This document shows, in pieces, positions 9,298 to 19,230 of a stretch of DNA of 20,735 nt; within the stretch, counting starts at the first letter, position 1; each line of letters starts with the position of its first letter. The translations under genes and the position numbers were made by a program. The stretch is taken from IMG/VR virus record IMGVR_UViG_3300042923_000270, positions 1 through 20,735 of that record, one strand, 5' to 3'. Source of the DNA: a virus. The notes under the pieces are model-generated. The model was not told where the DNA came from, ran no database searches, and saw only the letters and a list, made by a program, of their open reading frames with translations.

Positions 9298-10182
9298 CTA
9301 GAAGTCGCCGATGAGCCAGTCGCTGTCGGACGGCTGGGTGAACTTGTAGCCGACGTTCGGACGAGCCTCGACCATCTTGTTCTCGGTGAGAACCATCGGA
9401 CCCGCCGGAACGACCTCGTCGTCGACGTAGTACGTGACACCTGCGACCGTGGGAACGGTCATGGTGTTGGATGCGTTGTCGTAGGTCGGAGCGGTCGGAG
9501 TGACCGTGAGAACCGCTCCGGAGAAGAGCGCGATCACGGCCGCCGGAGTCGGCAGAGACGGGTCAGTACCCGCCGTACCGTAGAGGAACTCCTCCAGAGT
9601 GGCCAGGTCATCCGCGTCGACCTTCGTCGAGTCGATCGTGATGGTGGCCGTCGGCTTGTACATCGTGCCCGAGATCGTGCCGACCTCGACCGGAGTCGTG
9701 GTGAACTCCCAGCTGAAGGTGATCGCCTCGGGCGAGTCGTTGATGGTGGCGTAAGCCTTCTCGGACGGAGCTGCGAGAGCGCCGTAGACGAGGTGGAGCT
9801 TGTAGCCGTGATCCTGACCGTCCAGGTCGTTGCCGACCTTGGTGCGGTAGGACAGACCGAACGTCTTCCGGCTCTGCTGTCCGATGCCGACCCCGGGGGT
9901 CGGAGAGGCGGTGCCGTCGCACTGCTCGAACTCCGGCGGGTACATGAAGGCCTCGATCGTGCCACCGAATTCCTCGGCGGAGACCAGGTTCAGGTACTTG
10001 ATGTTGTCCGCGTACTGCGGGTTGGACTCGGCGCCCGAAGGCGACTCGGTGACGGTCGTCAGACCATTCCAGGACGATCCGGTGTCGTAGACACCTGCGC
10101 CATTGGGAATGTAGAGGACACCATGGTCGACGCCGGTCTCGTAGAGCCGCTCGCCCGCCTTGTCCCACGTGAGCGTGGTCAT
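9298..10182 (-). CDS. Major tail (tube) protein with C-terminal decoration domain
   Basis: This 294-residue protein is the main tube subunit. The core (about 1-215) contains LYETGVDHGVLY, YPPEFEQCDG, SYRTKVGNDLDG, GYKLHLVYGALA and INDSPEAITFSWE, all typical of this tube family. Residues about 227-294 form a separate domain (TPTAPTYDN, then PTVAGVTYYVDDE, then NVGYKF) homologous to the C-terminus of the capsid protein. Codons are strongly biased to C or G in the third position, as expected for a high-copy protein. The ATG at 10182 follows GAGGGAG and lies 16 bases after the terminator gene. It stands directly before the chaperone gene, the normal position. Confidence 0.92.
   Translation of the reverse strand: MTTLTWDKAGERLYETGVDHGVLYIPNGAGVYDTGSSWNGLTTVTESPSGAESNPQYADNIKYLNLVSAEEFGGTIEAFMYPPEFEQCDGTASPTPGVGIGQQSRKTFGLSYRTKVGNDLDGQDHGYKLHLVYGALAAPSEKAYATINDSPEAITFSWEFTTTPVEVGTISGTMYKPTATITIDSTKVDADDLATLEEFLYGTAGTDPSLPTPAAVIALFSGAVLTVTPTAPTYDNASNTMTVPTVAGVTYYVDDEVVPAGPMVLTENKMVEARPNVGYKFTQPSDSDWLIGDF
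9301..9504 (-). other. C-terminal decoration domain of the main tube protein
   Basis: About 68 residues (227-294), with TPTAPTYDN, then VPTVAGVTYYVDDE, AGP and NVGYKF. It matches the capsid C-terminal domain block by block. The second tube protein at 7928-8716 lacks it. Confidence 0.75.
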
Positions 10183-10843: not shown

Positions 10844-12859
10844 CTAGGCGGCCGGACGGGTGAAGGGCCACGAGTCCTCGGCGTTGGTGGCGAAGTAGTA
10901 GCCAGCGTTGGCGCTCGCGTAGACCGTCATGGACTCACCAGCCGCCAGAGCCGTCTGCGGTCCTGCGGTCAGGGTGACACCCTCGTCGTCCTTGTACGTC
11001 ACGCCGGTGACGGTCGGGATGGTGATGACGCCGGTACCCTTGTTGAACGCGGGCTTGGTCGGGGTGGCCAGAACGTTCGCCGCAGCGGTCTTCTTGATGA
11101 CCAGAGCCGACTTGGGGCGGACCAGAGCACCCGACATGCGGGTCTCCAGCAGGTACTTCTGCTGGTTGTAGTCGATGTCGAAGTCCTCGAACATCGTCAG
11201 CTCGCCACCCTTGTCGGTGCCGATGTTGTAGTCGTCGAGGTTGACGATGATGCCGACCAGGTCGGCGATCTCCTTCATCGGCTCGACCGTGTGGATCGCG
11301 GCGACGCCCAGGGCGTCAGCGACTTCCTGCTTCGTCTTGTAGTGACGGCGACCCATGCCATCGCGGGCCGTCAGGAACTTGTTGAGGTGCGGGATCGTGG
11401 TGTAGAAGGACGGGGTGCCGGTTCCCTTGTAGAACTCCATGCCACCCATGACCGCTTCCACGATCTCCTCGTAGGAGGAATCCGCGTTGTCGACGTTCAC
11501 GTTGACCGTGGTGACGAAGAGCTCGTGGTCGTTGTAGATCGACCGGAGACCGTCACCAGCCGCACCGCTGGGCTCCTTGATCTTGTCCTCGTCGGTCACC
11601 TGACGGCCGTCACCGATGAGGATCGCACGAGCGATTTCCTCCTCGGTCATGAGCCGCATCTCGCCCTTGAGGAAGGCGACGACGTCGAAGTCCGTGATGT
11701 CGAGCATGTCGTCACGGTCGAGCTTCTGCTTCTTGTAGATCGTGGTCGGGCCGGTGGTCCGCTTGGTGACGCCGAACCACTCTTCCAGCTTGTAGTTCCC
11801 CTTGATGTAGCCCTTGGCGCGGGCCTCCTCCTGCCGCAGGTCAGCCGCGAAGGTCTTGATGCGGGAGAACGGGGTGTGACGGGTGCCGTTGAGGACGGAG
11901 GCGACCCACTCGGTGCGACGCTTCTCCAGCTCGATCGTCCCCGTGGCCATCTTGGCGTCCGGGAACAGGATGTCGATGTCGGTGATGCCGTGCTGGAGGT
12001 TCGCCTCGGCGTAGTTCTCGACAGCAGTCTTCAGGGAGCCCGACTTCTGGGCATCCTGGAAAATGCCCTTGAGAGCATCGTGCGACAGCTCGTGCTTGGG
12101 CTTGCCGTCCTGGGTCTTGTCGTTCTGGTCGAACACGTTGCGCGACATGTCGTCGGCTCCTTCCTGGTGGGTGAGGTCACCCTCGCCGGGCTGGTTGTCG
12201 GAGTGGGAGGCGCTGGCTGCGGCGTCCTCGGTGGCGACACCGATGAGGTAGTGAACTACGTTCTTCTGTTCTTCGGTCATTCCGTCGTAGACGTCCTTGA
12301 CCGTTACGTCCTCGTCGTCATCGGCATGAGAGAGGTCGTCCTGAACCGTCACGGTCTCAGTCTCGTCCTCCACGGTCTCGTCCTCCGAGTGCTGAATCGT
12401 GAGACCCATGGTGATCACAGCGTCCTCGTCCGACTCGACGATAGAACCATCGCCGTGCTGGATGTTGACGAAGTCGATCTTGGCACCAGGATTGGCACCG
12501 GCCAGAACGAGGCTGACCTCGCGGATGGTTCCGTGGGTGACCGTCTTGGCGTGCTCGGTGAGTCCGTTGGCGAAGATCGAGAGAGAATCGAGATCCTCGT
12601 GCTCGACCGACTCCTTGGCAGCCTGAGCCTTGGGCGACTTGTTGAAGTAGCCGTAGGCGTACATGCCGTCGTCACGGGCTTCCAGGAGGGCGTGACCGAG
12701 CACGTTCTCCGGGTCGCTGTGGGCGTGCTGCCAGACGAGCGGAATCTTCCGGCCATCCATGTGGCGGAAAGCATCCGAAGTGATGGTCCGCCCATCGGAG
12801 CACTTGAGTCCAGCCTTGGTGGCGTAGCCACTGAAGTCGGGCTTACGATTTGCTGCCAT
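10844..12859 (-). CDS. Prohead protease - major capsid protein fusion (HK97 type)
   Basis: A 671-residue fusion. Residues 1-138 form an S78-family prohead protease: WQHAHSDPENVLGHA gives the likely catalytic His45, LDSLSIF the likely catalytic Ser94, and EVSLVLAGANPGA closes the fold. Residues about 139-237 are a very acidic linker with YDGMTEEQKNVVHYLIG, probably acting as the scaffolding (delta) segment. From Met238 (MSRNVFDQND) the HK97-fold capsid protein follows, ending in an Ig-like or small beta domain (about 597-671). The ATG at 12859 has AAAGGAG upstream. A good internal ribosome binding site precedes Met238, so free capsid protein may also be made. Codons in the capsid part are strongly GC3-biased. 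Confidence 0.92.
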   Translation of the reverse strand: MAANRKPDFSGYATKAGLKCSDGRTITSDAFRHMDGRKIPLVWQHAHSDPENVLGHALLEARDDGMYAYGYFNKSPKAQAAKESVEHEDLDSLSIFANGLTEHAKTVTHGTIREVSLVLAGANPGAKIDFVNIQHGDGSIVESDEDAVITMGLTIQHSEDETVEDETETVTVQDDLSHADDDEDVTVKDVYDGMTEEQKNVVHYLIGVATEDAAASASHSDNQPGEGDLTHQEGADDMSRNVFDQNDKTQDGKPKHELSHDALKGIFQDAQKSGSLKTAVENYAEANLQHGITDIDILFPDAKMATGTIELEKRRTEWVASVLNGTRHTPFSRIKTFAADLRQEEARAKGYIKGNYKLEEWFGVTKRTTGPTTIYKKQKLDRDDMLDITDFDVVAFLKGEMRLMTEEEIARAILIGDGRQVTDEDKIKEPSGAAGDGLRSIYNDHELFVTTVNVNVDNADSSYEEIVEAVMGGMEFYKGTGTPSFYTTIPHLNKFLTARDGMGRRHYKTKQEVADALGVAAIHTVEPMKEIADLVGIIVNLDDYNIGTDKGGELTMFEDFDIDYNQQKYLLETRMSGALVRPKSALVIKKTAAANVLATPTKPAFNKGTGVITIPTVTGVTYKDDEGVTLTAGPQTALAAGESMTVYASANAGYYFATNAEDSWPFTRPAA
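10847..11071 (-). other. C-terminal decoration domain of the capsid protein
   Basis: About 75 residues (597-671 of the fusion), with TPTKPAFNK, then IPTVTGVTYKDDEG, AGP and NAGYYF. It is homologous to the C-terminal domain of the main tube protein and lies beyond the capsid fold, so it is probably displayed on the outside of the head. Confidence 0.75.
12149..12162 (-). promoter_or_regulatory. Internal ribosome binding site before the capsid part of the fusion
   Basis: Reading leftward, AAGGAG occupies 12162-12157, followed by eight bases and an in-frame ATG at 12148 that encodes Met238, the expected N-terminus of the capsid domain (MSRNVFDQ). Strength and spacing are near ideal. The inferred product is a free 434-residue capsid protein in excess of the protease fusion. 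The element is directly visible; its use is not proven. Confidence 0.55.
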
Positions 12860-12875
12860 TTTGACTGACTCCTTT

Positions 12876-13361
12876 CTACTTCGTAGTCTTCTTGGCTCCG
12901 ATGGAGCCGTCTTGGCGCATCTTCTCGATCCGCTTCCGAATGGTCTTGATCTTTTCGTTCAGCGACGTCACGTCATCCGAAAGAGCCTTCTCCGGATTCT
13001 TCTTCCGGTAGGCTTCCGATGCCTTGGCGGCTTTGGCCTTTTGAGTGGGTGTCAGCTTCCGGTCAGGAGTCTTGGAGCCACCGGTTTCCGTCTTCTTGGG
13101 TCCGGTCTTCTTGGGCTCTACACCGCTTCGGGCCTTGGCTTGTTTGGTCAGTTCAGCAAGGACCGACTGGAGTCGCTCAAGACGTCCCTTAAGGGCATCT
13201 ACCTGGGCTTCAAGCTTCTTCCGCCTTTCGGCTTGTCGCTGAGCTCTCGTCTTCTTAGGGGGTGGGCCCTGACCGGGCTTTCGTCCCTTCAACTTACGAT
13301 TCCTGAGATAGTACTCGCGCCGTTTGGTGGCGTCGTAAGCGTGGACGAGGTTGTCAGCCAT
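12876..13361 (-). CDS. Basic coiled-coil protein with EYYLRNRKLKGR motif, between portal and capsid
   Basis: A 161-residue, very Lys/Arg-rich protein. Residues 7-27 contain YDATKRREYYLRNRKLKGR, a short motif I recall in varied phage head-region proteins, always of unknown function. A long coiled coil follows (about 41-75), then a Pro/Lys/Thr-rich segment with PKKTGPKKTETGG, and a second helix rich in Lys/Arg (about 128-153). Scaffold-like composition and the position just before the protease-capsid fusion suggest a head assembly or DNA-associated internal protein, but neither is shown. The ATG at 13361 overlaps the portal's end by eight bases; its ribosome site is weak, which suggests coupled translation. 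Confidence 0.75.
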   Translation of the reverse strand: MADNLVHAYDATKRREYYLRNRKLKGRKPGQGPPPKKTRAQRQAERRKKLEAQVDALKGRLERLQSVLAELTKQAKARSGVEPKKTGPKKTETGGSKTPDRKLTPTQKAKAAKASEAYRKKNPEKALSDDVTSLNEKIKTIRKRIEKMRQDGSIGAKKTTK

Positions 13362-14709
13362 CTTCTATCCCCAGATCGGAGAAGATCGCGTCTAGAGAGC
13401 CATTGAGTTCTGCTAGACCGCTCTGGAGAAGATCGGGCTCATCATCAACATCGTCTTCGTCCGCTTCCGGTGGAGCCGCCCCAGTACCGAGATTGGTTCC
13501 GGGCTGAGGCATGTTGCTGTTGACGAGTTGATCGGCCTTCGGGTCCTTGGACGGCTTGAATCCGATGCCCTGACGGATCTCGTTCGCCGAGAGAACCTCG
13601 TTCCTCGTGAACTTGTCCGCGATCTCGGCAACCTGCTCCATAGGAACAAGTGCGAACGGGTCCCGGAAGAACATGATCGACTGTCCCTGGGACCGAGCGG
13701 TCTTGGTCAGGAACTTTCGCTTCATCTCTTCGGAGATGGCTCGGACGATCGGCTTGATAGTCCGGTTGTGATAGTTCAGCATGGCCTTTTCATCGGCCGT
13801 ACCGTTCATGACTTCTTTGGTCAGACCGAGCTGAGAGTACAGCTCTTCAGTTAGGTACTCGATCTGCTTCAGGAAGTTGTTCTCAACCGGTCGGTTCAAC
13901 TGCTGGATCTTCTCAGTACCATCGGTATAGGCGATACCGTAAGTACTACCCTTTAGCTGAAACTCAATATCTTTCCGTCGCTGTTCCGCCTGCGCTCGAC
14001 GGGCTTCGGACTTGATCACGTACGGAAGCTGAATGATCATGTCGAGCTTACCAGAACTGGTTTGCTCGTCAACCGAGTCCAACATTCCAAGCTTCTTGGT
14101 CAGACGCTTGAGAGTTGAGTTCGGTTCGTTCATCACCGCATAAAGCGGGTTCTCGATGATTGCGACCATCTTCTTGGGGATGGTAATTTCTTTCCGTTCC
14201 CCATTGCGCTCATCGTAAAGACTTACGCGTACATGCTGCGGATGCCATCCCACAACTTCACCGACACGAAGAGACTTGATGTCATAGCCCCCCGTTTCGA
14301 GAGGCGAAATATCGGTCTCCACCGGAACGATAGCTGCGACGCCCTTTTCGAAGAGGGTCATCGCTATGTCTTGCTGGAACTGCTGTGGACCCTGATCGAG
14401 GTTTGGATCGACCTGAATACAATCCTGAAGTCCACTGGTCATGTCGCCGGTGTATCGGCCGTCGGCATCTGTTCGGACATGACGAATATCGATACCGGCT
14501 ACATCGATACCAACCCGAGTGTAGATCGACGAGATGATGGAACGCTCGTTCGAAAACGACAGTCGGGTACGAGAAGGAGATGCATAGTATCCGAGACCAC
14601 CGACACCATTGTGTGAGTGCGAATGGAGACCATCCAGATAGTTCTCGTCCAGGAAGGCATTCCAGCTATGCTTGAACCCTTCCTTCACACGGGAAAGCAA
14701 GCCTGCCAT
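13354..14709 (-). CDS. Portal protein (HK97-type)
   Basis: A 451-residue protein forming the dodecameric DNA channel at one capsid vertex. Family features include an N-terminal region with SIISSIYTRVGIDVAGIDIR, a beta-rich central clip and wing, the stem-type segment LGLTKEVMNGTADEKAMLNY followed by TIKPIVRAISEEM, and the late motif LSANEIRQGIGFKPSKDPKA. The C-terminal 50 residues are acidic and probably disordered (EADEDDVDDEPD). The ATG at 14709 has a strong AGAGGAGGTG site. The gene lies between the terminase and capsid groups as expected, although two motif-tagged genes separate it from the terminase. Confidence 0.9.
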   Translation of the reverse strand: MAGLLSRVKEGFKHSWNAFLDENYLDGLHSHSHNGVGGLGYYASPSRTRLSFSNERSIISSIYTRVGIDVAGIDIRHVRTDADGRYTGDMTSGLQDCIQVDPNLDQGPQQFQQDIAMTLFEKGVAAIVPVETDISPLETGGYDIKSLRVGEVVGWHPQHVRVSLYDERNGERKEITIPKKMVAIIENPLYAVMNEPNSTLKRLTKKLGMLDSVDEQTSSGKLDMIIQLPYVIKSEARRAQAEQRRKDIEFQLKGSTYGIAYTDGTEKIQQLNRPVENNFLKQIEYLTEELYSQLGLTKEVMNGTADEKAMLNYHNRTIKPIVRAISEEMKRKFLTKTARSQGQSIMFFRDPFALVPMEQVAEIADKFTRNEVLSANEIRQGIGFKPSKDPKADQLVNSNMPQPGTNLGTGAAPPEADEDDVDDEPDLLQSGLAELNGSLDAIFSDLGIEDG

Positions 14710-14745: not shown

Positions 14746-15702
14746 TCAGTACTTCCGGTTTTCCAGTTCAACGAGATTGTTCTCTGAACCACGGATGTCG
14801 CCGTTGCTCATCACATTACTGGACTTGGATCCTAGAGCATTCGTGGCGAAGATAACCAAGGGCGTTTCGCCGATCACCCCTGCGTCCATCTCGTCAACGA
14901 TCGCACCGAATCCTTTCTTACGAAGAGCACTGAACAGACCCTGAGCCCTTCCGTCGCTCCAACTTCCACCACTCAGTTCTTGGTATGCCTTGAGGGCATG
15001 ATCGTCCGTAGAGTCTCCAGAAAGAACGCCCTTGAGCGTCTCCAGAACCGTGCCCAGCTTAGGGACCCGGATCTCTTCCTTGGCATGGAAAGTGATGTGG
15101 TGAAGGTTGGGGGTGTCCAGCTCTTGTCTGAACTGAGCTACGTATCGGTCGAAATCTTCTCGGCTATGGGTAGCGTAGGTTGCAGACTTGAACGAGGTTT
15201 CGCCCTTCGTAGACAGGCGATGAAAGGTATGACCTGCAGGAAGAGAGAATTCCTCTCGGTCGAAAGACTGAGGTTTGAAGTAGTCGTCCCTCGCCCACGT
15301 CTTGATCTTGGAATGCATGACGTGTTTGGAGAAGGTTTCGAGGTCGATCGACTTCCCGCGAAGTTCCTCGATTGACGCAACCGTTCTTTTCTCAGCTATG
15401 ACATTAGCGAGAATAAGAGCGGTTATGGCAGCCCCGGTGGTAAGGGCTACTTTGTGATTCGAGGCAAACTTCTTGGCCTTGGCTGCTGCACTGTTCTTGG
15501 GCTTGTCGCCGTCGATCTTAGCCTTGAACTTCTCTTCGTTCTTGGCTAGGTTGGCGGCACCTTCCTTCAGAGGAGGAGTCTTCTTCGGCTTATGCGCCGC
15601 CTTGTACTTCTCCGTTACAGCGTCACGTTCGGAGGTCTCCTCTTCTTTCCGGATCCCCCAACGCATGCCCTTTACGCCATAGTGAATGATCTCATCGCTC
15701 AT
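14746..15702 (-). CDS. HYGVKGM-motif protein with possible ADP-ribosyltransferase-like domain
   Basis: A 318-residue protein. Residues 7-18 carry the tag HYGVKGMRWGIR. A lysine-rich stretch (about 30-80) and one hydrophobic, possibly membrane-spanning helix (about 84-102) follow. The C-terminal part (about 150-290) has LPAGHTFHRLST, YATHSREDFDRYVAQF, RVPKLGTVLETL and GFGAIVDEMDAG then TPLVIF. This order resembles ART-fold domains I have seen attached to the same tag in other phages, but I cannot place the catalytic triad with certainty. The ATG at 15702 overlaps the upstream gene by 11 bases and has only a weak ribosome site, so coupling is likely. The CDS is firm; the enzymatic call is tentative. 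Confidence 0.6.
   Translation of the reverse strand: MSDEIIHYGVKGMRWGIRKEEETSERDAVTEKYKAAHKPKKTPPLKEGAANLAKNEEKFKAKIDGDKPKNSAAAKAKKFASNHKVALTTGAAITALILANVIAEKRTVASIEELRGKSIDLETFSKHVMHSKIKTWARDDYFKPQSFDREEFSLPAGHTFHRLSTKGETSFKSATYATHSREDFDRYVAQFRQELDTPNLHHITFHAKEEIRVPKLGTVLETLKGVLSGDSTDDHALKAYQELSGGSWSDGRAQGLFSALRKKGFGAIVDEMDAGVIGETPLVIFATNALGSKSSNVMSNGDIRGSENNLVELENRKY
15649..15684 (-). other. HYGVKGMRWGIR tag, third copy
   Basis: Encodes residues 7-18 of the 318-residue protein. It keeps the His-Tyr-Gly-Val-Lys-Gly-Met core and the Trp-Gly pair but has Arg-Trp-Gly-Ile where the other two copies have Lys-Trp-Gly-Val. Confidence 0.9.
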
Positions 15703-16060
15703 GGTCAGACTTTTTGTGGGCAGAAGCGGCGATGCTGAAGATGCTTACGCCACCGTAAGCTCTGAGCATGTCCTTGGTCGTTGCCTTGCCGTTTGCGATC
15801 CGGTCGTGCTCTGCCTTCAGCTCAGCGCTTCTGCGGGCCGCCCCGCCCCTGAAACCGCCATTCTTGATCGAGAGGTCCTTCCACCTGCTCGACTGAATCA
15901 CGGCCATGTTTTCCAGAGGAGTACCCTTGCCCGCAGCGACCTTGTCGAGAAGGATAGTTCCCTTCCTGAGGTCACCGGTACGAGCCTTCTTGACGCCCCA
16001 CTTCATACCCTTGACGCCGTAGTGAGCAAGCTCTCCCGGCGAAGGATTTCTTTGACTCAT
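15692..16060 (-). CDS. Small HYGVKGM-motif protein, unknown function
   Basis: A 122-residue basic protein. The tag HYGVKGMKWGVKK is at residues 13-25. Then come a Lys/Gly-rich segment, a helix with RRSAELKAEHDRIANGKAT (a pattern I recall in other tagged phage proteins) and a short hydrophobic patch (AYGGVSIFSIAASA) near the C-terminus. The ATG at 16060 overlaps the terminase stop as ATGA and has AAGGAGGAG upstream, so it is well translated. It contains no recognisable catalytic motif. Position between terminase and portal genes and the shared tag suggest a virion or assembly role, which is inference. Confidence 0.75.
   Translation of the reverse strand: MSQRNPSPGELAHYGVKGMKWGVKKARTGDLRKGTILLDKVAAGKGTPLENMAVIQSSRWKDLSIKNGGFRGGAARRSAELKAEHDRIANGKATTKDMLRAYGGVSIFSIAASAHKKSDHER
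15986..16024 (-). other. HYGVKGMKWGVKK tag, second copy
   Basis: Encodes residues 13-25 of the 122-residue protein. The nucleotides over the core are almost the same as in the copy at 18238-18276. Confidence 0.9.
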
Positions 16061-17796
16061 TCGAACTCCTCCTTATGGAGCTTGTATGCCACCCAGGCAT
16101 CCATCAGTGCTGCTACGGCGTCGATCTTGGCGTCCTGACGCTTCTTCAGAAGCTTCCGGTTTCCGTTGGTGTCTTCCAACGTGATCGCATTACCCATAGC
16201 GAAGGTCATCAATGCTTGATCAAATATGAGCCAACGTTCGCCACTGAGAGTCTTGAGTTCCCCAAGCGGGACAGACTCCGTTCTCGCCCCCTGAATCACT
16301 TTCTCGATAGCATGCGGACCATTCTCCGCTTCCCAGCGGCCTACGAACTCCTTGGCGTTGTAGGGGTCGTACCCAAACGCGCGCACGTCATAGTTAGATT
16401 CCTGAATGAAACCATCCAGGTCATCATAGACTTCCATCATGTCGAGAATGCTGCCGTCAAGCACATGGAGACTACCCTCGTCCATGAATTCCTGATACTT
16501 CTGTCTCATGGCACTTTGAAGTTTCAGGAGGGTCAAGGATGAGATGTAGTTTCTCGTCTTCACCCCGAATTTGCCGCGTGACAGTGGAAAGAGGAATGTG
16601 AACGAACAGAAGTCATCACCCTGCGAAAGGTCGGCACCCATAGCACAAGGCAACTGCCAGAATTCCCGGTGAGGATGAGGTAGGGTCTCCTCGTAAGTGA
16701 AGAAGTACGTGTATCCCTCCATCGGAAGCCCGAAACGCTTCGCCAGAATATCGTTCCTGGCCGCAGGAGCCTTTTCGGCTCGTTCAACGTCGAGTTGGTA
16801 AACGTCATAGGTGACGGTCTTTCCGAGGTTGGGGTTCGCCTTCTGCCACATGGCAGGGTTGGCTACTTCTTCGACGTCGTCCAGCTTGTAGTGCCAGATC
16901 GAAACGTGAGGAGCCTGATACTCACCCTTGAGAATATCGGCCAGTTCCATCTTGATGGTGTCGCCACTGCCGTTCCGGACGGTACCTTCGGAACTGACAG
17001 CCACGATCAGATAGTCATCAAGCTTTGAAGCACCCTGTTCGATGGCGCCGATGACATCTTCTCGCAGATCCCCAGACAGCCATTCATCAACTGTTGCTAT
17101 CTTGGTACGAAGACCTTGAAGCTTGTTGATGGTCATCGGCCGTACTTCAAGGATCGAACCCGTGAGGAAGTTCTCGACACCCTTCTTGGTCGCGGCCAGC
17201 TTGACTCGGTTGACCCTTGACCCGGTGGTGTTCTGAAGCGATCCTTCTGTGAGAAACGCGAAGAGCGGTCCCCTGGCCCGGACGATGGACGTTCTGACGG
17301 GTGACATGACCTCGTCAGCCTGCTTCATCGTAGGGGCTGTAGTGATCTGATGAGTGGTGGACGAATCGATGTTCAGAAAATAGCTCTGGAGGCAAGATTC
17401 ATACAACGACTTGGCCGCACCACGGGCAACGATCAGGTACTGCTTTGTCGTAAGGCGCTTCTTGATCACCTTGTCCACGTAACGTCCGCCACGCTCGCCC
17501 GGCTCGTATACGCTTCGATTGACGAAGTAGTACCAGCAGAAAATCTGTTCTGCCCACAGTTTGAACGTGTCAAGCAGGTGAAGATCGGTACCGTCGGTAA
17601 GAGTGAGTTCCGCTTCGCAGTACTTTACGAACCCCTCTACCGGATTGGGATCGTAGTAGATGTTCGGATTCGCGATGAGTGCGTCGATGCGGTTCATCTC
17701 TAGGGAGACTTCCCGGTTTACCGGAATATCGCCGTTCAGTACCGCGTCACGGAATCTTCCGTAGTAGTACGGAACTGCCGTGTTCGACAAGTCCAT
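16057..17796 (-). CDS. Terminase large subunit
   Basis: A 579-residue packaging motor ATPase and nuclease. The Walker A-like loop is at about 122-130 (IVARGAAKS, a slightly unusual form with ARGAAKS). The Walker B and catalytic acid are at 232-238 (KIATVDE; Asp237, Glu238). Nuclease-domain acids are likely Asp389 in GADLSQGDDF, Asp477 in FGYDPYN and Asp559 in AKIDAVAALMDAW. The C-terminal part also has the family-typical RWLIFDQALMTFAMGN. Length is normal for the family. The ATG at 17796 has a strong AAAGGAGG site, 15 bases after the previous stop. Head genes follow directly. Confidence 0.93.
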   Translation of the reverse strand: MDLSNTAVPYYYGRFRDAVLNGDIPVNREVSLEMNRIDALIANPNIYYDPNPVEGFVKYCEAELTLTDGTDLHLLDTFKLWAEQIFCWYYFVNRSVYEPGERGGRYVDKVIKKRLTTKQYLIVARGAAKSLYESCLQSYFLNIDSSTTHQITTAPTMKQADEVMSPVRTSIVRARGPLFAFLTEGSLQNTTGSRVNRVKLAATKKGVENFLTGSILEVRPMTINKLQGLRTKIATVDEWLSGDLREDVIGAIEQGASKLDDYLIVAVSSEGTVRNGSGDTIKMELADILKGEYQAPHVSIWHYKLDDVEEVANPAMWQKANPNLGKTVTYDVYQLDVERAEKAPAARNDILAKRFGLPMEGYTYFFTYEETLPHPHREFWQLPCAMGADLSQGDDFCSFTFLFPLSRGKFGVKTRNYISSLTLLKLQSAMRQKYQEFMDEGSLHVLDGSILDMMEVYDDLDGFIQESNYDVRAFGYDPYNAKEFVGRWEAENGPHAIEKVIQGARTESVPLGELKTLSGERWLIFDQALMTFAMGNAITLEDTNGNRKLLKKRQDAKIDAVAALMDAWVAYKLHKEEFE

Positions 17797-17811
17797 CGCT
17801 AAGCCTCCTTT

Positions 17812-18858
17812 CTACCGCTCTGCTGCCATCCGGCGTACTACTACGCCTGCTCCGGCTGTTACTGCCGCCGATGTCCCGCCAGTGGCATAGGCAAGTCCAG
17901 CAGTGACAGCAGTCGTCACACCGGTCTTGACTGCCACACCGGTTGGAGTCTTCAGAAACTGGCGTACATCGTTGACGGTCTTGCCGAGAGCGAGAACCTT
18001 CTTGACCTGATCGTGCCCCCGGTCCACAGAAGACTTCTCAGGCGGAGCTGTCATCATCGTTCGGTACTGACGTTCCAGGTTCATCCGCGTCAGAAGACCC
18101 TGCAGTTCCTGATTGCTGAGGGTTTGGGTACCGCCTTGAGAAATCTTCCTCTGAGCGTTGACAGCAGCCTTCACATCGGCCGAAACAGGCGGAGGCTTTG
18201 GAGCTGAAGCTGAAGCTACCGAAGACTGATCATCAGCTCGACGGACCCCCCACTTCATACCCTTGACGCCATAGTGACTGAGAGCCGTCTGTCCGACCTC
18301 GCTCATGACGGAGTGAGGCGACTGGATTTGTGACATCGCTACCTCCATGTCGTAACGAAAAGGTTTGAGATCGAATGTCGGACCTTCGGAATCTCCGATC
18401 CACAGAGCGACACGGTCGAACTGGACGAAGGTGACTCCAGCGTCGAAGTCGTTCGGGGGCTTCTTCGCCGGGGTTTCGGGATACCCGAGCGTCAGATGAG
18501 GAGTCCAACCTTCGAACTGTTCGGTGCCATGGTAAGCAGCCGAGATGAGAGGATTCTGAAGAAGGTGGTCCCGGAAGGTCTGAATTTTACGGGACAAGTA
18601 GTCCTTGTAGAAGAAGAGTACATCCGCTTTCTTGTCGCCCAGCTCACCCCGTCGATCAACCTCAAGACTGAATTGAAAGAGGAAAGTTGAGGCATAGTCG
18701 ACGTACTCCTGAAGCTTGGTGATCTGTCCCTGATCGTAATCAGGCTCACCCAGGTACAGAAGCGTCAGATGCGGATTCTTCTCGCTCGAAACCTTATGGA
18801 CATAGTCGTTCTCAGACGGAAGAGCGACTACTACAAGCTGGGTACGGGCGCCGTCCAC
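17812..18858 (-). CDS. 2H phosphoesterase fused to an HYGVKGM-tagged C-terminal region
   Basis: A 348-residue protein. Two His-x-Thr motifs, PHLTLLYLG (His30) and TPHLTLGY (His121), about 90 residues apart mark the 2H phosphoesterase (2'-5' RNA ligase-like) superfamily, which acts on 2',3'-cyclic or 2'-5' phosphodiester bonds. Residues 195-207 are HYGVKGMKWGVRR; beyond lies a helical segment and a Gly/Ala/Val-rich hydrophobic tail (about 305-345). I chose the GTG at 18858 because GGAGG lies seven bases upstream; an ATG at 18891 would add 11 residues and overlap the preceding gene by 61 bases. An internal start at 18336 may yield the tagged half alone. Substrate is unknown. Confidence 0.8.
   Translation of the reverse strand: MDGARTQLVVVALPSENDYVHKVSSEKNPHLTLLYLGEPDYDQGQITKLQEYVDYASTFLFQFSLEVDRRGELGDKKADVLFFYKDYLSRKIQTFRDHLLQNPLISAAYHGTEQFEGWTPHLTLGYPETPAKKPPNDFDAGVTFVQFDRVALWIGDSEGPTFDLKPFRYDMEVAMSQIQSPHSVMSEVGQTALSHYGVKGMKWGVRRADDQSSVASASAPKPPPVSADVKAAVNAQRKISQGGTQTLSNQELQGLLTRMNLERQYRTMMTAPPEKSSVDRGHDQVKKVLALGKTVNDVRQFLKTPTGVAVKTGVTTAVTAGLAYATGGTSAAVTAGAGVVVRRMAAER
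18238..18276 (-). other. HYGVKGMKWGVRR tag, first copy
   Basis: Encodes residues 195-207 of the 2H-phosphoesterase protein counted from the GTG start. It is the most canonical of the three copies in the window and lies between the enzymatic domain and the helical C-terminal region. Confidence 0.9.
18337..18346 (-). promoter_or_regulatory. Internal ribosome binding site within the 2H-phosphoesterase gene
   Basis: Reading leftward, GGAGGT occupies 18346-18341, then four bases and an in-frame ATG at 18336. The product would begin MSQIQSPHSVMSEV, run 174 residues and place the tag near its N-terminus, as in the 122- and 318-residue tagged proteins. The element is directly visible; whether it is used is inference. 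Confidence 0.5.
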
Positions 18859-19196
18859 TCTTCCCCCTCCCGATGAACGTTGAGAAGCCATTCGAACTTC
18901 TCGATCTGCTTCTCCATGGAATCAAGAGCGTAGGACGTTCCTGGCGGATCGAATACCAATCGAACCGACATGTAAACGTAAGTCCTCACTTGGCTGAGTC
19001 GAGGATCGTTCCCGATGAAGGCGTCCCACGTGGCCGTGTCGTCTTCGATCATGAAGCCTCCGACTGGGCCGATCCCGAGTTGGTCCAGTCTTGCCAACGT
19101 TGAGTTGATGTGCATGATGATGTCGGTATCGAACGATGTGTCAGTCTCAGGCAGGCCAAGAACCTTCTTGACACTGACAAGGATGCGCTGTTCCAC
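18831..19196 (-). CDS. Head-tail adaptor (gp6-like connector)
   Basis: A protein of about 121 residues resembling gp6-type adaptors that bind under the portal. Visible family pattern: VKKVLGLPETDTSFDTDIIM, INSTLARLDQLGIGP, then RTYVYMSVRLVFDPP and IEKFEWLLNV. I prefer the GTG at 19196 (MEQRILVSVKK) because AGGAGG lies at proper spacing; the GTG at 19205 is too close to it. The end overlaps the next gene by 28 bases, which implies coupled translation. Such genes normally follow the capsid gene; here it precedes the terminase by two genes, about 6 kb upstream of the capsid end in transcription order. Confidence 0.75.
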   Translation of the reverse strand: MEQRILVSVKKVLGLPETDTSFDTDIIMHINSTLARLDQLGIGPVGGFMIEDDTATWDAFIGNDPRLSQVRTYVYMSVRLVFDPPGTSYALDSMEKQIEKFEWLLNVHREGEEWTAPVPSL

Positions 19197-19230
19197 GTGG
19201 GACACCTCCTCTCATTTTGACGGAGTTGGA

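Follow-up and report, generated by a model that had tools for sequence, protein, structure and literature searches.

The internal proteins of phage T4 are diverse defence proteins that have a conserved capsid targeting sequence (CTS) alone in common (PMC3012670; PMC12373910). MuF polymorphic toxins of temperate phages join a head-associated N-terminal part to variable enzymatic C-termini, and their genes are found at the portal and terminase genes (PMC5576092). Polyvalent proteins, which are predicted to be packaged into virions, include ADP-ribosyltransferase (ART), RimI-like GNAT acetyltransferase, 2H phosphoesterase and peptidase domains (PMC5512222).

Here we describe a peptide tag carried by otherwise unrelated proteins that are encoded around the large terminase gene (TerL) of a virus. 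The tag corresponds to Pfam family DUF7211 (PF23847), whose function is not given by Pfam, and a literature search for the motif, DUF7211 and PF23847 found no paper. It probably serves one siphophage head lineage as a short encapsidation (head-sorting) signal, placed mostly at the N-terminus, which would load cargo proteins for injection.

Results

Three neighbouring proteins share one short peptide

The stretch of DNA analysed (the window) is a 20.7-kb virus fragment from the neighbourhood of Streptomyces phages of the Bingvirus/Rimavirus type. The genes and tags considered here are as follows.

18831..19205, minus strand: head-tail connector, the syntenic upstream neighbour (Phage_connect_2, 9e-40)
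17812..18891, minus strand: 359-aa tagged protein (Pfam 2_5_RNA_ligase2 and DUF7211)
18245..18276, minus strand: tag HYGVKGMKWGV, residues 206-216 of the 359-aa ORF
16057..17796, minus strand: terminase large subunit, TerL (Pfam TerL_nuclease, 5e-34; phrog_9, 1e-107)
15692..16060, minus strand: 122-aa tagged protein (DUF7211, 5e-12)
15993..16024, minus strand: tag HYGVKGMKWGV, residue 13 of the 122-aa ORF
14746..15702, minus strand: 318-aa tagged protein (DUF7211, 4e-8; 11-sequence alignment; predicted model)
about 15652..15684, minus strand: tag HYGVKGMRWGI, residue 7 of the 318-aa ORF
13354..14709, minus strand: portal protein (Pfam Phage_portal, 4e-19)
12876..13361, minus strand: 161-aa coiled-coil protein, very basic (+29) (phrog_12541, charge, N-terminal motif)
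10844..12859, minus strand: fused prohead protease and major capsid protein (phrog_3270, 2e-247; Peptidase_S78; Phage_capsid)

The motif H-Y-G-V-K-G-M-[KR]-W-G-[VI] is present in exactly three ORFs of the window, with TerL lying between them, just as the initial annotation had placed them. That annotation gave the tag as HYGVKGMKWGV in all three proteins, which holds for the 359-aa and 122-aa proteins but not for the 318-aa copy, HYGVKGMRWGI. Likewise, the tag of the 2H protein is present, but its position shifts from residue 195 to residue 206 when the longest ATG start is used. A scan of the whole window with the DUF7211 profile (25 residues long; curated cut-off 27 bits) matches the three tagged ORFs and no others, at 32.9, 45.5 and 45.2 bits, all above the cut-off. 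A degenerate DNA pattern of the tag has no match in 100 dinucleotide shuffles, which rules out a chance occurrence. BLAST alignments among the three proteins are limited to the tag region and detect nothing else in common, in line with the earlier statement that the proteins are otherwise unlike.

The tag is predicted to lie outside the folded domains

The 359-aa protein comprises a 2H phosphoesterase domain (residues ~17-177), a linker that holds the tag, and a helical module. The sequence HLT occurs twice in it, both HxT motifs are kept in 27 of 27 relatives, and the predicted fold is that of LigT/CPDase (Z about 12-13, up to 12.9 over 138 residues). With two HxT/S motifs and a 2H fold, the protein belongs to the 2H phosphoesterase superfamily, which bears out its first identification. 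Its structural match to the Acb1 anti-CBASS nuclease has a Z of 8.7, compared with 12-13 for LigT-like enzymes. The helical module, LSNxELxxLxxRMNLExxY, is homologous to tagged genes adjoining TerL in many phages. Module and tag together form the most widespread carrier, and TerL starts directly after it in 45 of the 46 relatives parsed.

In the 318-aa protein, the tag is followed by a linker, a hydrophobic helix (~90-113) and a C-terminal domain (~146-312). Foldseek finds no significant match to the model in the PDB (no E below 0.16), and sequence profiles of the 2H and ART-like families match no PDB chain. When the C-terminal domain is given a second look with a structural aligner, nearly all of the 39 best-ranked chains are of the ART, RES or NADase type or related, and the best match is of moderate strength (Z 7.3, rmsd 4.8, 139 aligned). 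The model is suggestive, rather than proof, of an ADP-ribosyltransferase-like domain. Seven residues are invariant in an alignment of 11 family members (R162, S164, E168, Y176, D183, D270 and D273), and these are candidate catalytic residues.

The predicted models place the tag in disordered segments of both proteins, with a pLDDT of 32-40 for the linker of the 359-aa protein and about 31 for the tag of the 318-aa protein. The possibility that the motif is simply the core of one catalytic domain, which the initial annotation had raised against its own proposal, is rejected by these models for the 2H and ART-like proteins.

The 122-aa protein shares 50% identity with the latter half of GirlPower gp9, which is itself a fusion of a tagged acetyltransferase with a tagged relative of the 122-aa protein. 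In its close relatives Kardashian gp8 and Miek gp8, the leader is kept and the remainder is swapped. Membership of the tagged proteins in the MuF family is rejected, as no MuF domain (PF04233, PF06152) is found in the window proteins at E up to 1, or among 176 carriers scanned at E up to 0.001.

One tag is joined to many kinds of cargo

A set of 270 tagged ORFs was collected from fetched loci, mostly from IMG/VR with a few named phages, of which 180 are non-redundant. The tag profile is [DE][DE]xLxH[YHF]G[VI]KGM[KRH]WG[VI]R[RK], with conservation over about 15 residues. The H, G, K, G, W and G of this profile are invariant by construction of the regex search, and the choice of loci by a strict DNA pattern means that the true variability of the tag is underestimated. 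Indeed, the middle lysine is changeable in divergent phages, as seen in Qui (HYGV[MALQ]GMKWG) and phage 1706 (HRGVIGMRWG). Arthrobacter phage Qui (L189, 114 kb) has nine tagged genes, all with its genome-specific variant without the middle lysine.

Of 255 complete ORFs, 225 have the tag in their first 25 residues, and tag positions cluster at residues 4-20, a statistic that depends on start codons chosen by our own script. At least two tags are present in 18 ORFs. When the tag is masked, the 180 carriers separate into 115 unrelated clusters at E below 1e-8, a stricter cut used in place of a single-linkage cluster of 162 carriers that we distrusted. The cargo domains recognised include a papain fold of the glutamine-deamidase type (7), GNAT acetyltransferase (7), 2H phosphoesterase (4) and one P-loop NTPase. 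A search for the motif among phages, as the initial annotation had proposed, finds diverse domains joined to it.

Several individual carriers merit mention. Tagged proteins with the papain (glutamine deamidase-like) fold are encoded at L065:802-1686 and L029:12663-13544, and in that of L065 a hydrophobic helix separates the tag from the domain. The tagged protein at L104:4225-4968 contains HESAHAMFH, which resembles a zincin-type metallopeptidase motif. One carrier gives a XopAD-type match that may be a repeat artefact.

The tag follows one head lineage

Among 50,697 phage records, a tag match is found in 238 and a relative of the fused protease-capsid protein in 258. The two counts are equal for Arthrobacter (95), Gordonia (55), Streptomyces (54), Curtobacterium (7) and Microbacterium (4) phages, an agreement between genus counts rather than a record-by-record overlap. 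The records left over with the capsid only belong mainly to Streptococcus phages, where the matches are weak or partial, and to Lactococcus phages, where the tags are divergent. Degenerate tags are present in all four Lactococcus phages checked by profile (1706, CHPC971, P078 and P162), and the 13 kb read of Streptococcus phage Javan411, which has separate protease and capsid genes, contains no tag. In 28 tagged viral contigs, the fusion (phrog_3270) is present in 27, TerL in 28 and the portal gene in 27, and the sole contig without the fusion is a 15.8-kb fragment.

The same association is seen in cellular genomes. Only 18 stretches in 84,980 bacterial and archaeal genomes fit the strict DNA pattern, and these are located in 16 genomes. 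Twelve of the 16 also have the fusion, which in 11 cases lies on the same contig as the tag and at most a few kb away, and the other four are represented by short contigs or weak single matches. One of the loci, L182, is binned as a Thermoplasmata archaeon and has two tags with the capsid fusion on another contig; contamination during binning is possible.

Position within the genome is equally constrained. On contigs of at least 30 kb, 64 of 69 tags lie in a stretch that starts 8 kb ahead of TerL, ends at the capsid gene and makes up 26% of the bases. In records that include the capsid gene, every tag is on the strand of that gene. Of the 37 genes located between TerL and portal in ten genomes (the window, Kardashian, Miek, GirlPower, Inked, Zeph, Pepy6, Qui, oengus and BitterVaud1), 35 are tagged. 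A portal protein itself (L094:5124-6575) has a tag at about residue 427 of 484, in its C-terminal tail.

Because the tag is restricted to one capsid lineage, its partner would be the protease-capsid fusion or the portal. Linkage between tag and fusion is not proof of contact, since head genes are inherited together, and it could reflect co-inheritance of the whole head module rather than binding.

Cargo changes while leader and tag stay constant

The nearest relatives of the window, Kardashian and Miek, are 91% identical to it in TerL, 75-78% in the portal and 74-79% in the capsid protein. In the gene that follows TerL, the first 29-31 residues, tag included, are 71-76% identical, and the sequences are unrelated thereafter.

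Tags on unrelated cargo are more alike within a genome than between genomes. Within genomes, the codon identity of tags is 55.5% versus 41.6% expected (control 43.1% versus 43.0%), whereas between genomes it is 38.1% versus 34.1% expected. Selection acts on the protein, because between-genome codons are near expectation while the peptide is kept, and a purely DNA-level element is rejected on the same ground. We read these patterns as selection on the tag peptide, combined with acquisition of new cargo through recombination or local copying at the tag.

Tagged proteins are basic, and one relative is annotated as structural

With the tag removed, the net charge per residue of tagged ORFs is +0.086, compared with -0.012 for other ORFs of the same loci, and 98% of the former versus 32% of the latter are net positive. 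For annotated genes of eight named phages, the values are +0.054 and -0.022 (P 2e-12, which is optimistic because related proteins are treated as independent). The three window proteins have +0.090, +0.020 and +0.003 per residue, such that two of the three are barely basic.

Gene product gp07 of Lactococcus phage 1706 has two tags and is a "structural protein" by record annotation. It is syntenic with the 359-aa protein of the window and aligns with the tagged region of that protein (E about 1e-4). Alignments with Qui gp15 also connect the two (4e-11 to 1e-10 for gp07 and Qui gp15; 2e-13 for Qui gp15 and the 359-aa protein). The tagged protein gp019 of ReqiPepy6 is annotated by similarity to 1706 gp07.

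Other features of the head module

The 161-aa coiled-coil protein, encoded between portal and capsid, has an N-terminal motif that differs from the tag, LVHAYDATKRREYYLRNRKLKGR, with 33 matches and at most one per locus. Written as [DE]xLxHxYD[PA]xKxxEYYxRTRxLKGR, this motif has its leading [DE]xLxH in common with the tag. It is also carried by two long ORFs, one of 492 aa in L153, apparently the portal ORF, and one of 714 aa in L098. This basic protein is possibly a second internal protein. In addition, the major tail protein (9298-10182) is matched by roughly the last 30 residues of the capsid fusion profile, which suggests, from sequence comparison, that the capsid and major tail proteins have an Ig/InlB-like add-on domain in common.

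Discussion

The initial annotation proposed that the three window proteins are candidate capsid-targeted effectors, which the present analysis supports in part. A modular sorting signal beside head genes passed every computational test run: the tag is linked to head genes and joined to diverse cargo, cargo is swapped while the leader stays the same, tagged proteins are basic, the predicted catalytic folds do not include the tag, the window has an ART-like cargo, and phage 1706 has a homologous tagged protein that is annotated as structural. From these observations we infer packaging, a binding partner, ejection and enzymatic targets of the tagged proteins, and delivery of effectors is the conditional part of the proposal.

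In the mechanism that we consider, a component of the head would recognise the tag while the prohead assembles; the likeliest candidates are the fused protease/major capsid protein, through its inner face or a scaffold-like region, and the portal. Recognition would draw basic cargo proteins into the prohead, where they would be enclosed along with the DNA and then ejected into the next host. There, catalytic cargo, which in the window would be the 2H phosphoesterase and the ART-like domain, would act on host defence or metabolism. Over time, cargo would be exchanged behind the constant leader and tag.

The tag might instead dock assembly or packaging factors on the portal or terminase, such that the carriers remain at the vertex or in the infected cell and are not delivered effectors. 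Carriers surround TerL and the portal, the most widespread of them directly precedes TerL in nearly all parsed relatives, and MuF proteins are known to bind the portal (PMC5576092). Even so, we judge this arrangement unlikely, because assembly factors would not be expected to be as diverse and enzymatic as this cargo, because the cargo is swapped between near-identical head modules, and because several phages are without any TerL-portal gene.

Processing rather than sorting could be the main role if the tag were a recognition or cleavage site of the fused prohead protease. T4 internal proteins are processed by the prohead protease, and the co-occurrence of the tag with the protease-capsid fusion is near-perfect. 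However, the 2H protein has its tag at an internal position, other carriers have the tag in duplicate, and the roughly 15 conserved residues exceed a typical cleavage site, which makes this role improbable as the principal one; the two roles are compatible.

Still harder to defend is the view that the carriers are ordinary late cytoplasmic or membrane accessory proteins, with a tag that docks the membrane or a host protein in a non-virion role. Strong hydrophobic segments are present in 15% of the ORFs with a tag and 6% of those that have none, and many Qui carriers are annotated as membrane proteins, such that, judging by sequence, some carriers could be targeted to membranes. Most carriers have no such segment, however, and the restriction to one head lineage, the tag on a portal protein and the structural annotation of 1706 gp07 all count against a non-virion role. 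Finally, conservation of the tag as DNA, namely as a site of recombination or mobility whose translation is incidental, is scarcely credible given the near-expected codon identity between genomes, despite the calibrated within-genome excess and the leader and tag that mark the swap junction, although recombination at the tag may be the route of cargo exchange.

A sorting signal for the head thus remains our preferred reading. In its broader form, towards which the balance of evidence tilts, the tag would represent an undescribed, widespread siphophage encapsidation code, in which one short peptide, swappable toxin-like or anti-defence enzymes and a protease-capsid receptor combine to provide a multi-enzyme cocktail at infection. 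If true, DUF7211 would become the sequence signature of head-loaded proteins in phages of Streptomyces, Gordonia, Arthrobacter, Rhodococcus, Lactococcus and gut bacteria, and hundreds of "hypothetical proteins" encoded between TerL and portal would become candidate injected anti-defence or host-takeover enzymes. It would also offer a short, portable tag for loading proteins into siphophage capsids, which so far has been available mainly with T4.

Comparison with known systems

DUF7211 and the tag are the same 25-residue profile, to which the present analysis adds the head linkage, the cargo census and the evidence for swapping. Like MuF toxins, tagged proteins join a head-linked N-terminal part to varied enzymatic cargo near the portal and terminase genes. 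However, MuF folds as a domain (that of SPP1 Gp7 attaches to the portal), whereas the tag spans about 15 residues and can be present on as many as about nine genes of a single phage. The domain repertoire overlaps that of polyvalent and P1 Dar proteins, and the GNAT, glutamine-deamidase papain fold, 2H and ART-like cargo types largely match polyvalent proteins predicted to be injected (PMC5512222). Those domains are strung together in one long polypeptide, whereas the tagged set consists of separate small proteins, each with its own tag.

A further parallel is with T4. IPI-III and Alt, like the tagged proteins, are diverse and often basic, share only a short N-terminal peptide, derive from a variable gene hotspot, and are anti-defence enzymes or inhibitors, as is proposed here for tagged cargo. 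The tagged proteins differ in being associated with an HK97-like head with a protease-capsid fusion, in siphophages of mostly Gram-positive hosts, and the tag, unlike the CTS, can be internal or repeated, with an encapsidation role that we infer. To our knowledge, the CTS and the tag peptide have no recognised sequence similarity. A short peptide common to otherwise unrelated proteins is found in both systems, and the best explanation by analogy is that the tag works like the T4 capsid targeting sequence, a proposed likeness of function.
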